A DNA stretch of 64,000 nucleotides from Runella sp. CRIBMP (GTDB lineage Bacteria > Bacteroidota > Bacteroidia > Cytophagales > Spirosomataceae), in the NCBI RefSeq assembly GCF_009905605.1, contig NZ_JAAAKZ010000006.1, positions 62,001 to 126,000 on the forward strand, given 5' to 3'. Below the pieces are notes generated by a model. It did no database searches. It was not told the origin of the DNA and saw only the letters and a program-made list of their open reading frames with translations. The position numbers were made by a program, and so were the translations under genes. Positions 17,802 through 22,775 of this stretch are shown in pieces; within the stretch, counting starts at the first letter, position 1, and each line of letters starts with the position of its first letter.

Positions 17802-18578
17802 CTAAAAATCGCCCGAATAAAAAGGGCTGAATACATAATAGCTCGAATCGCGTTTCAGCCGGTTGGGTGCCCGATCAATCCAAATGACATAATCGGTTTC
17901 GTTGGGTTTGCGGGTGGAGGCTTGAATCATTTTTAATTCAGGAACTGACTTTTGATTATTCCGGTACTCCTCGGCAACACCATATAAATTTTCTTTTGAG
18001 GCGCGCTTGTGCGCATATACTTGGGCTACCTGCCTGATGTGCACGTTCTCTAGTTCTTCCAATGAGACTTGCTTGCCATCCACAAATACCGTCACGCTTT
18101 TCTTGTATTCATCGTAAAGAGCTAATTGATGATTAGCCCGAACGTAGAGCATAGTGTTTTTTCGTTTAAAAAAACTTGCTTCCATGAGTTGATTCATGTC
18201 GCCCGTCCAAGTGTAGGAGGTATGTTTATTCGAATTCTCAATTTTAACCCTACCCACCAGCTGGCCTTGTTTGTAGTTTTCAAAGATGACAGTATCCCCT
18301 GAGTGAGAGGTTGTGCTGACAGTCATTTGGTCAATGCTTGGCCTCTGGCTTTTATCATTTTTAATAACGGCTTCTTTCTCTGGCTCCGATTGCAGCAGTG
18401 GCTGACACATCGCCGTTAAAAACAACAATAAACTCAGGACAATATACCGCCAACTGCTTCGCCAAGTGGATTGACGGTTCATCATCTCAATACGACTATG
18501 TAACCTTGATTTATTTGAATGCACCTCGCCGAAGTGGTTGGTGAAGGTGAAATGTGTGGGATCAGTGAGGGTTTTCAT
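17802..18578 (-). CDS. Stand-alone M56-type juxtamembrane and sensor module, diverged copy
   Basis: A 258-residue protein, last gene of the BlaI-M56 operon. It begins MKTLTDPTHFTFTNHFGEV and reaches RIEMMNR by residue 35, the same block that follows the peptidase domain in the neighbouring M56 protein (19511-21406). One transmembrane helix (YIVLSLLLFLTAMC) comes next, then a periplasmic domain ending in a plug-like segment with FVDGKQVSLEELENVHIRQV and ENLYG. No HExxH is present, so it cannot be a peptidase. It starts 12 nt after the stop of its paralog. It may be a sensor, decoy or substrate of the protease; this is inference. Confidence 0.75.
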   Translation of the reverse strand: MKTLTDPTHFTFTNHFGEVHSNKSRLHSRIEMMNRQSTWRSSWRYIVLSLLLFLTAMCQPLLQSEPEKEAVIKNDKSQRPSIDQMTVSTTSHSGDTVIFENYKQGQLVGRVKIENSNKHTSYTWTGDMNQLMEASFFKRKNTMLYVRANHQLALYDEYKKSVTVFVDGKQVSLEELENVHIRQVAQVYAHKRASKENLYGVAEEYRNNQKSVPELKMIQASTRKPNETDYVIWIDRAPNRLKRDSSYYVFSPFYSGDF

Positions 18579-18590
18579 GGCTATTTGAAT

Positions 18591-19514
18591 TTAAAGATTA
18601 GTATGAACAAGTACATACGTCTTCTTGGCATAATCTTTCTTTTCATCATAGATGTCGAAGATGAATGCATCTTTTATCGTTTTTGGGTCTAATTGAGCTA
18701 AATCTTCATTGGCAATCGGGTGTCGGTTAACTCGTGTAATTGCACTGGGATGTTTTAATGCTTCTTTCAATATTTCTGCGCCTGAAAGTCTATCTTTCCA
18801 AACGGAGGTAGATTTTCCCAATAACACTCTAAAGAACGGCGATTGGTTTTCAGGAAAAGAAGTGACAGTTAGATATTGAATATTTTCCCAAAATGTCCCT
18901 ATTTGAATCTGCTTCTCCCTCAATTCATATTCAAGGGCATTTTCATTATAGGCTTTTTCTGCCTCTGCGCGGTCTTCCAGCACCACTTTCTGTAAGTCAG
19001 CCAAAGGGGATTTCCTGATATAATGAATGATTTTGTTTGTCTTGAGATCCAATTTTAGAAAATCACCCATTATAGGTCGAAGTGAATACGGGTTTCCGTA
19101 GTGCGAAGAACCTGCACTTTTCTCTGTACTTTGGCGAGTTTCCATTCGTTGGACATACAATTGCAAAGGGTCTAATTGATAAGATGTTACTTCAAACGTT
19201 CCACCATGCGCCTCGATAGCTTCCTGTATTTTCGTCAAATCTTTCATTGTAATTTTGGGCGTAATAACCCACTCAATGGCATCATCTGTTTGAATTAAAT
19301 ACTTTGTTTGGTTATTGGCGATAAGGTAAGGCTTTGAAAATGAGAATACTATAAAGAGTACAGGCACGAATAGGAAGTACTTGCCGACCGTCTTCCAAGT
19401 CTTATGTGGTTTATTCATCATCTCAATGCGCGTTTTCAACAGTGATTTATTGAAATGCGGTCCACCAAAGTGGTTGGTAAAGGTGAAATGGTCTGGATTA
19501 GTAAGGGTTTTCAT
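18591..19514 (-). CDS. Stand-alone M56-type juxtamembrane and sensor module
   Basis: A 307-residue protein that starts MKTLTNPDHFTFTNHFGGP, continues NKSLLKTRIEMMNK, and has a transmembrane segment (VGKYFLFVPVLFIVFSFSKPY). All of this closely repeats residues 263-310 of the M56 protein. The homology continues into the periplasm: TKYLIQTDDAIEWVITPKIT here against TKYVIYKDNKLHWVVTPTMT in M56, and QLDPLQLYV against DYDPISHYL. It has no peptidase domain. Its ATG overlaps the M56 stop by 4 nt (ATGA), showing translational coupling. It looks like a tandem partial duplication retained as a gene. Confidence 0.8.
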   Translation of the reverse strand: MKTLTNPDHFTFTNHFGGPHFNKSLLKTRIEMMNKPHKTWKTVGKYFLFVPVLFIVFSFSKPYLIANNQTKYLIQTDDAIEWVITPKITMKDLTKIQEAIEAHGGTFEVTSYQLDPLQLYVQRMETRQSTEKSAGSSHYGNPYSLRPIMGDFLKLDLKTNKIIHYIRKSPLADLQKVVLEDRAEAEKAYNENALEYELREKQIQIGTFWENIQYLTVTSFPENQSPFFRVLLGKSTSVWKDRLSGAEILKEALKHPSAITRVNRHPIANEDLAQLDPKTIKDAFIFDIYDEKKDYAKKTYVLVHTNL

Positions 19515-21406
19515 GGCTTATTAGATTCTTTTGTGAAAATTATCATCGTTCGATGGGCTGATTTGCGTGTGGAGTCTGTATAAAATGCGTAAGAAACTAC
19601 ATAACGAATTTCATCAATGATTAACTTTTCTGCTTCTTGATATGTACTTGGTTGATTATTAATGAAAAACTCGGAGGATTTATAGAGATTCTCAATGCGC
19701 AGTTGCCTTTCTTCAAAATAAATACGATTGCGAGCACCCATTTGGCAGAGATATTGGAGAGCGTTTGGGCTGAATTTGGCTATCCCATTTGGGGTTTTTA
19801 AAGGGCTGGAATAAAATTTATTGGTACTACCTCTCCATTGAGACTCATAGTTTCTCAATTCGAGTTCAATTTTACGACTTTCTGCTTCCAATTCGGCTTT
19901 ACGATATTCCCTAGAATGACTTGCAAGCCATTTATCCACTTTTTCTTTGTCCGCTGATACAACCGAACTGAATTGGTGATCAAATGAAGTTTTATTTATT
20001 TCAGCCCTACCACCTTCAATGGCTACCCAGCCCCCAAAAGCAGTAATGGGTTCTTGCTTTGCCCCCGAAACATTGGTATAACAATCTTCACCATCTTTCA
20101 AAAAAGAGGTTTTCAGGTGAATGCCTGATAAATAATGACTTATGGGGTCGTAATCGGTCTTTTTTACGTAAAATGTAGCACCTACTTTTTCAAATTCTTC
20201 ATGGATAGCAAGAAAATCTTCAAAGGTCATAGTGGGGGTAACGACCCAATGCAGTTTGTTATCCTTGTATATTACATACTTGGTTTGCGAGACTAAAGTG
20301 TCTTTTGATGATGAATTGACTGAGACAACGGTTTCCTTCTCAGGTTTGGGGGGGGCTTCAAGTACAAAGTCATTAAGCTGCGTCAAAGGAGGATTTTGTC
20401 TTTCAAAAACTACCTTCAATTCTGGCACTTCCTTCACAATCTTCGCCGCTATTTCAGCCCGATAGGGTTTTGTAAAAGCCGCACAAACCCACAACATTGC
20501 CACAAAAAGGAAATATTTCCCCACGCCCATCCACTTGGATTTTGACTTGTTCATCATCTCAATGCGCGTTTTCAACAGTGATTTATTGAAATGCGGTACG
20601 CCAAAGTGGTTGGTAAAAGTCTGTTTATCGGCCGAGAGTGTAGTGCGAAGCAAATGGTATTGATACGATTTCTTTTCAATACCGCTGTCCAACACCGCGC
20701 GGTCGGTGATGAATTCGAGCGTTTCCTGCACCAGTCGCTGATGCCACCATGCAAAGGGATTGAACCAAAACACAATCTTTAGCACCTCGGCCGTGAGCAT
20801 GTCGATGCTGTGGAGTTGGTGCGCGTGTACACATTCGTGCGCCCACACCTGCGCCCATTCGTCGTCGTTGTGGTGGGTAGGATTGTAAAAAATACGGTTG
20901 AAAAACGAAAAAGGTGACGTAATTTTATCATTCTCAATCAAGTATACACCGTCTTCGGTTTCGTATTGGGTACTGCCGTGTTGCAGTCGCCAGAGAGCTC
21001 CCAGCTGAATCAGTAATTTCAGCACTAACAAACCTGCCACTACGCCATACACAATGCCGATCCAATCCCATACCGAAAGCGATGAATCTTCCAAAACTGC
21101 GCTTGGCACCGTCGTTGCCTGAGGACTGGGAGCAATGAATGGCTCCGATTTTGTCACCTTTGGTACTGGACTAGCCGGCTTGGGTGGCAAAACGACGGCT
21201 ACGGCTTGGGCGGGGGCATTGGGCACCCATTCCAAATCGGGGAGGGGAATGATGGGCAACAACAAGGTGGCCGCCACATTGATCCATAACAACCACCGGT
21301 TGACCTGCAAAAAAGTCTCACGTTTTACCAGCCAAGCGTAGGCGGTGGTTAAAATGGCCAATACCAAACTGGCTTTCAGGAGATAGGAAAGGAGTTCGTA
21401 GTTCAT
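19511..21406 (-). CDS. BlaR1-like M56-family membrane zinc protease with sensor tail
   Basis: A 631-residue integral membrane protein. Transmembrane helices lie at about residues 5-22, 35-52 and 113-131. The cytoplasmic zinc-protease domain has HExxH as H190-E-C-V-H194 and the downstream FITDRAVLDSG region. Then come the juxtamembrane block TFTNHFGVPHFNKSLLKTR (from residue 263), a fourth helix (GKYFLFVAMLWVCAAF) and a long periplasmic domain to the end. In BlaR1/MecR1 systems such proteases cleave the BlaI-type repressor once the sensor binds its ligand. The sensor is not a penicillin-binding domain, so the signal is unknown. It follows blaI by 24 nt. Confidence 0.88.
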   Translation of the reverse strand: MNYELLSYLLKASLVLAILTTAYAWLVKRETFLQVNRWLLWINVAATLLLPIIPLPDLEWVPNAPAQAVAVVLPPKPASPVPKVTKSEPFIAPSPQATTVPSAVLEDSSLSVWDWIGIVYGVVAGLLVLKLLIQLGALWRLQHGSTQYETEDGVYLIENDKITSPFSFFNRIFYNPTHHNDDEWAQVWAHECVHAHQLHSIDMLTAEVLKIVFWFNPFAWWHQRLVQETLEFITDRAVLDSGIEKKSYQYHLLRTTLSADKQTFTNHFGVPHFNKSLLKTRIEMMNKSKSKWMGVGKYFLFVAMLWVCAAFTKPYRAEIAAKIVKEVPELKVVFERQNPPLTQLNDFVLEAPPKPEKETVVSVNSSSKDTLVSQTKYVIYKDNKLHWVVTPTMTFEDFLAIHEEFEKVGATFYVKKTDYDPISHYLSGIHLKTSFLKDGEDCYTNVSGAKQEPITAFGGWVAIEGGRAEINKTSFDHQFSSVVSADKEKVDKWLASHSREYRKAELEAESRKIELELRNYESQWRGSTNKFYSSPLKTPNGIAKFSPNALQYLCQMGARNRIYFEERQLRIENLYKSSEFFINNQPSTYQEAEKLIIDEIRYVVSYAFYTDSTRKSAHRTMIIFTKESNKP

Positions 21407-21430
21407 GGTGAAGCGTTAATAGGTTTTCTG

Positions 21431-21793
21431 TTATTCGTTTTGTTCAATCATACGCAGGATTTCCCGCAGTTCATCGGCACTTACTTTGTCGTTTTGGGCA
21501 AAATAAGACACCAGATTTTTGTAAGAGTTGTCAAAGTAGTCGCCAACCAATTTGTTGATAACGAACTGGTTCTGGTATTCTTCTTTGCTGATAAGCGGGA
21601 AATATTCATGCGTATTCCCGAACGAACGATGATGTACATACCCCTTTTCTTCGAGATTACGGATGATGGTCGAAACCGTGTTGTAATGCAGCGGCGGGTT
21701 GGTAAAATAAGGCAATAGGTCTTTCACAAAAGCACTTTCGGCTTTCCAGAGCGCCTGCATGATTTCCTCTTCTTTGTTGGTGAGCTTTTCCAT
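21431..21793 (-). CDS. BlaI/MecI/CopY-family transcriptional repressor
   Basis: A 120-residue winged-helix repressor with the canonical start MEKLTNKEEEIMQALWKAE, helix ending PLHYNTVSTIIRNLEEKGYVHH, and a C-terminal dimerisation region (LVGDYFDNSYKNLVSYFAQ). It represses its own operon until an M56 protease cleaves it. That role is established for the family and inferred here. Two BlaI-type dyads overlap its promoter. The start codon lies only 4 nt after the -7 element, so the transcript may be leaderless. First gene of the operon ending at 17802. Confidence 0.93.
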   Translation of the reverse strand: MEKLTNKEEEIMQALWKAESAFVKDLLPYFTNPPLHYNTVSTIIRNLEEKGYVHHRSFGNTHEYFPLISKEEYQNQFVINKLVGDYFDNSYKNLVSYFAQNDKVSADELREILRMIEQNE

Positions 21794-21797
21794 AAAA

Positions 21798-21828
21798 CAA
21801 ACATATAACTATATTTATAGTTTACAAA
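21798..21828 (-). promoter_or_regulatory. Bacteroidota-type promoter of the blaI operon
   Basis: On the minus strand, -33 TTTG (plus 21825-21828, CAAA) and -7 TATGTTTG (plus 21798-21805) are spaced by exactly 19 nt, a full match to the consensus. The predicted start point falls at about 21790-21794, at or beside the blaI ATG (21793). Confidence 0.75.
21807..21822. promoter_or_regulatory. BlaI-type operator 1
   Basis: AACTATATTTATAGTT is a palindrome (AACTATA/TATAGTT) filling the spacer between the -33 and -7 elements, so bound repressor would block RNA polymerase. Confidence 0.7.
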
Positions 21829-21842
21829 CTATTTTTATAGTT
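21827..21842. promoter_or_regulatory. BlaI-type operator 2
   Basis: AACTATTTTTATAGTT repeats the operator 20 bp upstream (centre to centre) and overlaps the -33 element. Confidence 0.65.
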
Positions 21843-21932
21843 TTATTTTCAAGTATTGTTTTCTGAACCATTTTTGTCAATTTTGGTTAGAATTACGTGT
21901 TACTACAGTTGTTCACCTTATCACATTCAAAA

Positions 21933-22775
21933 ATGAAAAAACTGATTCTCGTTGGGGCGATGTTTGCCATGCAAGCGTTTACCCCTCGTCCGCTGGAAGC
22001 GCCCATCCCATTGTGCCAAACCTCGGAGCACGACATGGCTATGCTGGGAGCTGATCCTGCTTTCCAGATGCTTCACGAAGCGCCGTTGCCTTTTCATTAC
22101 GCGGGTAAAGGTGAGATGATTACCTTCGCAACTTCTGACGGCAAACCTGCGTCGGCGTTTTTTATCAAATCAGCAAAGAAATCGGATAAGTGGCTTTTCG
22201 TTTATCAAGAATGGTGGGGCCTGAACGACCACATCAAAAAAGAAGCTGAAACCTTCTATAATGACCTCGGCGACGTAAACGTACTGGCCCTTGATATGTA
22301 CGACGGACAAGTGGGTACCACGCCGCAAGAAGCGGGTAAAATCATGCAATCAACGCCCAAAGAGCGCTTGGAGGCAATCATGAAGGGTGGTATTGCCTAC
22401 GCAGGAAAAGACGCAAAAATTGCGAGTGTGGGCTGGTGCTTTGGCGGAATGCTTTCGTTGCAATCGGCCTTGCTAGAAGGAAAGCAGGCGGTGGGTTGCG
22501 TGATGTACTACGGTCGTCCTGAGCAAGATGTGGAAAAACTTAAGACCTTGAACGTGGACGTATTGGGTATTTTTGGTAGCCAAGACCAAGGGATTCCACC
22601 GGCTACGGTTGCGAAATTTGAAGAAAATATGAAAACGGCGGGTAAGCAGGTCACGATCAAGATGTACGATGCTGTACACGGTTTTGCCAATCCAAGCAAT
22701 CCCAAGCACGACCCAACCGCTACCGCCGATGCGTACAAAAACGCTTTGGGGTATTTGAAAAAGAAATTGAGTTGA
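21933..22775 (+). CDS. Secreted dienelactone hydrolase-family protein
   Basis: A 280-residue protein from ATG 21933, whose signal peptide is MKKLILVGAMFAMQAF; an upstream in-frame ATT/TTG start is less likely. The dienelactone hydrolase fold shows the nucleophilic cysteine in GWCFGG (around residue 171), the aspartate in GSQDQG and the histidine in DAVHGF. The segment QEWWGLNDHIK is typical of the family. Family members hydrolyse dienelactone or other carboxylic esters. The natural substrate here is not known. It is divergent from blaI and may share its control region, but no regulated promoter of its own is clear. Confidence 0.82.
   Translation: MKKLILVGAMFAMQAFTPRPLEAPIPLCQTSEHDMAMLGADPAFQMLHEAPLPFHYAGKGEMITFATSDGKPASAFFIKSAKKSDKWLFVYQEWWGLNDHIKKEAETFYNDLGDVNVLALDMYDGQVGTTPQEAGKIMQSTPKERLEAIMKGGIAYAGKDAKIASVGWCFGGMLSLQSALLEGKQAVGCVMYYGRPEQDVEKLKTLNVDVLGIFGSQDQGIPPATVAKFEENMKTAGKQVTIKMYDAVHGFANPSNPKHDPTATADAYKNALGYLKKKLS

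Follow-up and report, generated by a model that had tools for sequence, protein, structure and literature searches.

In the described BlaR1/BlaI and MecR1/MecI systems of Staphylococcus and Bacillus, one receptor carries one attached sensor resembling class D β-lactamases (PMC7593790). BlaR1 of Staphylococcus aureus, whose parts follow the same order as those of the M56 protein studied here, cleaves itself in a loop at S283/F284, which yields a C-terminal product of residues 284-585, and its helix α9 is domain-swapped together with the terminal membrane helix between two chains, with Arg294' docking against Asp246 (PMC9834060). The autocleavage is reported to occur in cis, and BlaI cannot be cleaved while the loop occupies the active site (PMC9834060). 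Autocleavage was also reported to be spontaneous, the wild type holding both cleaved and uncleaved forms, and wild-type BlaR1 cleaves BlaI better than an autocleavage-deficient mutant. How the sensor of a BlaR1-type receptor controls the protease, and the reason for the arm swap, have been argued from few structures.

Here we describe a locus which, unlike BlaR1 and MecR1, has extra separate genes for arm and sensor; some related loci are split, and the sensors resemble, weakly, the plug domains of TonB receptors, with no match to a β-lactam sensor seen. Three further systems invite comparison. MecR2 likewise supplements a repressor/M56 system and aids removal of the repressor, and is described as an anti-repressor in MRSA (PMC3406092); compared with this description, the two short proteins reported here duplicate one half of the receptor itself. 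In polymorphic toxins, variable C-terminal domains swap by recombination with stand-alone cassettes (PMC3482391), whereas here a regulatory protease exchanges its periplasmic sensor, and each cassette is a complete gene under constraint. Some membrane proteins are naturally split and made from two separately encoded parts (PMC3464245), whereas here fission and fusion recur within one family and there are several alternative second parts. BlaI/M56 systems are already known; the split receptor and the arrays of alternative sensors which exchange with the protease appear to be new. In the open-licence literature searched, we found no description of a receptor split at the autocleavage loop with arrays of protease-exchanging sensors, in agreement with the original prediction, which had proposed the arrangement as undescribed.

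The operon and its two short genes

The locus is located in a window of 64,000 nucleotides (the whole stretch of DNA analysed) from a 7.1 Mb genome, whose near relatives are Runella species; the genes flanking it are 95-96% identical in DNA to those of the Runella genome G012. Four genes on the minus strand follow one another in the predicted order blaI, M56 gene, short copy, short copy, at the predicted positions (Table 1). The M56 gene and the first short gene indeed overlap by ATGA (19511-19514), and the second short gene starts 12 bases past the end of the first. A motif scan bore out that HExxH is absent from both short proteins, so that neither qualifies as an M56 peptidase, and neither gave a Pfam match above the cut-off. 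The letters HExxH do appear in the sensor part of G001_c1 and G010_c2, both from other Runella genomes, with no peptidase domain nearby. The gene divergent from blaI (21897-22775) is one that we take to resemble a dienelactone hydrolase in Runella, and the candidate palindromes sit between both genes. Its place opposite blaI is taken in Larkinella and the genus g5 by a small lipoprotein-like gene.

Table 1 Features of the BlaI/M56 locus, with positions in the window.
Feature	Position	Strand	Basis
BlaI-type repressor P0004, 120 aa	21431..21793	-	Pfam Penicillinase_R 97.4 bits, cut-off 22.6
M56 protein P0001, 631 aa	19511..21406	-	Pfam Peptidase_M56 60 bits, cut-off 31
Protease half of P0001, residues 1-262 (membrane helices, HECVH 190-194, E231, D235)	20621..21406	-	
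Loop, α9, last membrane helix and sensor half of P0001, residues 263-631	19511..20620	-	AlphaFold2 model
Shared block in P0001 (autocleavage-loop segment, α9, membrane helix)	20462..20620	-	DNA direct repeat, invariant residues
Putative stand-alone sensor subunit 1, P0002, 307 aa	18591..19514	-	Homology to P0001; orthologues in G010 and G012
Shared block in P0002	19326..19484	-	DNA direct repeat, invariant residues
Putative stand-alone sensor subunit 2, P0003, 258 aa, class E, C-terminus SPFYSGDF	17802..18578	-	Class matches in the family
Shared block in P0003	18393..18548	-	Class E alignment, DNA direct repeat
Candidate operator, palindrome AACTATATTTATAGTT	21807..21822		Genome and window pattern counts
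Second candidate operator, palindrome AACTATTTTTATAGTT	21827..21842		Genome and window pattern counts

P0001 has the HExxH with downstream Glu and Asp that characterizes BlaR1-type proteases; an HExxH with E-x3-D 25-50 residues further on was present in all 55 proteases checked. It also shares the membrane-protease fold of BlaR1 as well as the autocleavage loop, the α9 docking arginine and the last membrane helix, as judged from the model, a Macrococcoides M56 alignment and the residues reported for BlaR1 (PMC9834060). In its AlphaFold2 model, a monomer like all of our structure models, a low-confidence loop (263-273) is followed by helices 273-285 and 292-311 and by sensor strands from residue 378, and the short copies start in the loop that helices 245-261 and 273-285 enclose. 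The BlaI-type repressor P0004, which is encoded in the same operon as expected for a cognate repressor, is presumably the target of P0001.

As had been proposed, the block common to the three proteins starts near residue 263 in P0001; in the DNA it represents a direct repeat (114-120 nt, 76-81% identity). The pairwise E-values, each of which refers to a single comparison, lie far beyond chance: P0001 and P0002 are 34% identical over 194 columns (E 2e-29), P0001 and P0003 31% over 113 columns (E 4e-11), and P0002 and P0003 44% over 79 columns (E 6e-19). The match of P0002 extends, as claimed, via the membrane helix into the sensor. P0003 had likewise been regarded as a copy of the M56 sensor half and does contain the shared block, but the similarity stops soon past the membrane helix, and its sensor belongs to a class distinct from that of P0001 and present across the family (class E; the model of this class is weak, with a mean pLDDT of 60.8). 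In class E, the membrane helix ends in an invariant cysteine (28 of 28 proteins; residue 58 of P0003, window 18405-18407) and the C-terminus SPFY[S/T]GDF is near-invariant among the same number of aligned proteins; the cysteine is possibly a lipid or disulfide site and the C-terminus possibly a binding tail.

N274, L278, R281, the residues MMN and Y298 are invariant in all of the 36 Runella M56 and stand-alone proteins, and all 28 class E proteins aligned keep the arginine equivalent to R281. In each of the 27 Runella copies scored, the most hydrophobic early segment lies at residues 36-47 and its N-terminal side is net positive. P0002 and P0003 are predicted to span the membrane with a single helix, the N-terminus inside, followed by a periplasmic domain. 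A loop remnant, the α9 arginine, the membrane helix and a predicted periplasmic domain, i.e. the features of the C-terminal BlaR1 fragment, are found in both, and they correspond to the C-terminal autocleavage product of BlaR1, the domain-swapped arm, including the docking arginine.

Two adjacent candidate palindromes precede blaI (Table 1). Their exact pattern occurs at 2 sites in the 7.1 Mb genome, both of which are located here, and at 17 sites for the backward control; with one mismatch, 2 palindromes were found in the window versus 0.50 expected, a number reached in 5 of 100 shuffles. By eye, similar boxes can be recognized ahead of blaI in other Runella genomes as well as in several relatives, in some of them further upstream. 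Autoregulation of the blaI operon is likely.

Sensor arrays, fusions and split receptors in related genomes

Stand-alone genes accompany the BlaI/M56 locus in 11 of 13 Runella genomes, with one to four genes each and a count of 29 if G002, which continues on a second contig, is entered with its minimum (one gene in G003; two each in G000, G004, G009 and G012; three each in G001, G006 and G011; at least three in G002; four each in G007 and G010). No array was seen in the fragmented assembly of G005. In G008, neither a blaI nor an M56 frame was among those listed for the locus, and only a 147-aa relic with membrane helix and sensor was found between the flanking genes (L215:2439-2882), which are conserved in most Runella loci. 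With the attached sensor included, up to five sensors belong to one protease. All of the stand-alone Runella genes have a start codon, 24 of the 26 junctions between successive genes show an overlap or a gap of no more than 19 bases, and the class E gene stands last in those arrays that possess one.

The stand-alone genes are under purifying selection in the 13 pairs tested (dN/dS 0.14-0.35), with values of 0.14-0.26 for P0002 versus its orthologues in G010 and G012. The highest value, 0.35, comes from a pair including Runella sp. MFBS21 (G006), whose M56 gene is broken into three pieces (L041:5554-7364) and whose three stand-alone copies are still open. Damage was also found in single copies, i.e. 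a stop in G007_c3, a last copy of 109 aa in G009, and a shortened G006_c3 with its end lost. The original prediction had named relaxed or frameshifted evolution, or the lack of any link to BlaI/M56, as signs of decaying duplications; apart from some damaged copies, the analysis found neither overall, and the BlaI/M56 operon with stand-alone sensor halves is mostly not decaying.

A count of other genomes with such short paralogs, which had been suggested, led beyond Runella. The block profile matches at least 178 of 222 family genomes, the matches listed being mostly M56 genes, and the loci read showed stand-alone genes in Larkinella (eight named loci, with the first copy of Larkinella humicola split over two frames) and in the genera g5, g19 and g57. 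The arrangement is spread over the family and extends beyond the Runella locus. Among the matches listed for 390 genomes of the order, there was no further convincing stand-alone case, and five short-frame matches that were checked proved to be M56 genes. Class E, the type of P0003, matches 58 of the 222 family genomes at E 1e-10; a sample of 395 genomes from the phylum gave 46 class E matches at E 1e-5, and only family members matched beyond the block. In some Larkinella, the two stand-alone sensor genes are separated by a gene for about 980-1020 aa (L063:12839-15910, L065:12946-15891, L066:6023-8968), which presumably resembles M16-type peptidases.

Class E allows a direct comparison of attached and separate sensors. 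Judged from the frames and stretches read, the sensor is fused in 20 of the 58 genomes and separate in 37 (10 Runella, 8 Larkinella, 16 g5, 2 g19 and 1 g57), while one genome (G186) has a block-only match; among the 37 separate genes, that of G210 is broken and those of G006 and G009 are partial. In all of the 20 fused, long-frame cases, class E forms the C-terminus of an M56 protein of 568-595 aa, and the junction is located at the same block. Where the separate class E gene has no other copy before it (18 genomes, including G211 and G225), the preceding gene encodes an M56 protease, and in six of these (G168, G030, G212, G219, G234 and G028) this protease is sensorless, with 257-316 aa and an intact HExxH. 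Four of them (G168, G030, G212 and G219; 257-264 aa) end cleanly directly before the loop. The other two, in G234 and G028, retain a damaged or truncated block and look as if the sensor was lost. G210 (L221, C39:604500-610500), where the class E gene has an internal stop and no M56 protease is present in the 6 kb read, is a decayed locus.

Where tested, sensor and protease of split loci are constrained, with dN/dS values of 0.07-0.11 at dS above 1 (0.11 at dS 1.29 for the G168/G030 protease); G205, which bears a sensor, versus the split G219 gave 0.08 over the shared part. By its sequence, a sensorless protease with a neighbouring separate sensor is a naturally split receptor. That the separate sensor and the protease work together is suggested most strongly by the fact that the same two parts form one polypeptide in many species. 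A quick tree built from 45 class E sensors needs at least ten changes between fused and separate forms, which is a raw minimum from a tree with long-branch warnings; mixed pairs reach SH-aLRT values of 98-100, e.g. G223 (fused) with G238 (separate) and G215 (fused) with G234 (split).

Exchange of sensors between Runella species

Comparison of the 10 intact Runella M56 proteins, each from a species representative, revealed proteases and attached sensors with different histories. The protease of G000 is 95% identical to that of G010 and the attached sensor only 32%; the corresponding values are 95% and 36% for G000-G002 and 93% and 31% for G001-G004, and the relation is reversed in G004-G009, with 59% for the protease and 90% for the sensor. 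The DNA identities of blaI and the flanking genes track the protease, not the sensor. In six exchanged pairs, the best single change-points fall at residues 317-333, soon past the membrane helix of the block, with lnL gains of 133-265; in G000-G010, identity dips inside the block already from about residue 250. Of the two control pairs, G000-G012 showed no change-point (gain 2.6); that of G001-G011 was weaker and lay in another part of the protein (residue 117, gain 16.8).

The sensor attached to P0001 shares 92% identity with a G002 sensor whose contig begins inside the gene. This G002 sensor is most likely stand-alone, since the M56 gene of G002 is complete and carries a different sensor. 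For the 29 Runella rows, a tree that comprises 33 sensors requires at least six fused/separate changes, again a raw minimum with long-branch warnings. The shared block and the exchange with the protease-attached sensor are what characterizes recombination cassettes. These results suggest that sensors shift between separate and protease-attached forms in evolution and that one protease can be fitted with different sensors.

A trans-acting sensor model and its alternatives

We consider it fairly probable that the locus encodes a BlaR1-like receptor with one BlaI/M56 protease and exchangeable, trans-acting sensor subunits, which are reshuffled by recombination. P0001 would provide the protease with one attached sensor, and P0002 and P0003 would be extra subunits, each with a short cytoplasmic piece comprising autocleavage site and α9, one membrane helix and a periplasmic sensor. 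The protease domain of BlaR1 is completed by the arm of another chain, and the stand-alone proteins might supply this arm in trans; one protease and one BlaI could therefore read several periplasmic inputs. Upon a signal, the protease would cleave BlaI, and its own operon would be de-repressed. The block common to all copies would serve as a stretch of homology, where recombination changes which sensor the protease carries. We infer complex formation, docking of α9 and its arginine in trans, signal transfer, autoregulation, any cleavage and any ligand. A receptor of two chains is plausible because wild-type BlaR1, which includes cleaved forms, cleaves BlaI better than the autocleavage-deficient mutant.

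Several observations count against a trans-acting role. Autocleavage of BlaR1 is reported in cis, and extra loops could inhibit the protease. Class E genes lie about 4 kb from the M56 gene in G180, G183 and G185 and about 16 kb in G182, sensor-bearing proteases also occur in many of the genomes whose class E gene is separate, and the proteases of G234 and G028 have the appearance of sensor loss. The broken M56 gene of G006 and the damaged copies weigh in the same direction.

More tentatively, and with slightly less than even confidence, we propose in addition that a single repressor-cleaving protease docks by domain swap with any of several separate sensors, and that the sensor array diversifies and re-attaches to the protease by recombination through the docking module, which would thus both make the subunits compatible and shuffle them. 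Receptors cut into two genes at the autocleavage loop, with sensors shifting between attached and separate, represent a natural experiment on how such receptors work. If the separate subunits act in trans, they would offer an easy test of arm docking and sensor specificity and a way to rewire repressor-protease switches. These systems also add a class of periplasmic sensors.

Decoys, extra sensors and substrates had all been offered as roles in the original prediction, and the fused forms and sensorless proteases favour extra or interchangeable sensors. As decoys or brakes, the stand-alone arms would occupy the arm-binding or active site of the protease, or titrate the ligand, without productive sensing. 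The loop and α9 are kept in proteins without a protease, and extra loops could inhibit the protease, given that the loop of BlaR1 blocks cleavage of BlaI from within the active site (PMC9834060). We nevertheless regard this role as unlikely: the same sensors form the productive-looking C-terminal half of M56 proteins elsewhere, and at split loci the separate sensor adjoins a protease that lacks one.

The stand-alone genes might also be mainly donors for recombination onto the protease, as in polymorphic toxins, which would fit the repeat block common to the copies, the exchanged sensors with breakpoints at the block end, and the nesting of sensor types across fused and separate forms. However, start codons in all and close coupling in nearly all of these genes speak against silence, the tested pairs are under purifying selection as proteins, and class E is kept in last place in the Runella arrays having one and retained in other genera. 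A reservoir of this kind, quite improbable as the main role, could be an addition to a role of the proteins rather than a replacement.

Cleavage of the stand-alone proteins by the M56 protease at TN-x-F, the released or shed product being the signal, would be compatible with trans-acting sensors. The F, T, N and F of F-T-N-x-F, which all 28 class E proteins aligned retain, fall at the P4-P1' residues of BlaR1 (PMC9834060). Such conservation is equally expected if the loop merely binds, however, and the pattern is present in only 23 of the 27 Runella copies scored, with F-T-H in two and no match in two, and a substrate role appears very unlikely to us. That the genes are functionless, decaying tandem duplications is barely conceivable: the damaged copies in G007, G009, G006, Larkinella humicola and G210, the broken M56 gene of G006 and the relic of G008 would fit, but the constraint on the 13 stand-alone pairs contradicts decay for the pairs tested, and that on split sensors and proteases and the spread over the family argue against it as well.

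Elsewhere in Bacteroidota, two or three full-length M56 genes stand in a row (L052, L054, L074, L076 and L080), which is another route to several sensors. In G014 and G196, a different BlaI/M56 locus has an M56 gene of 512 aa overlapped by a 221-aa frame (L211:931-3043 and L212:2340-4452); this frame, which has a block of its own (TNSF, LKQRVQML) and a hydrophobic stretch, is perhaps an independent stand-alone arm.
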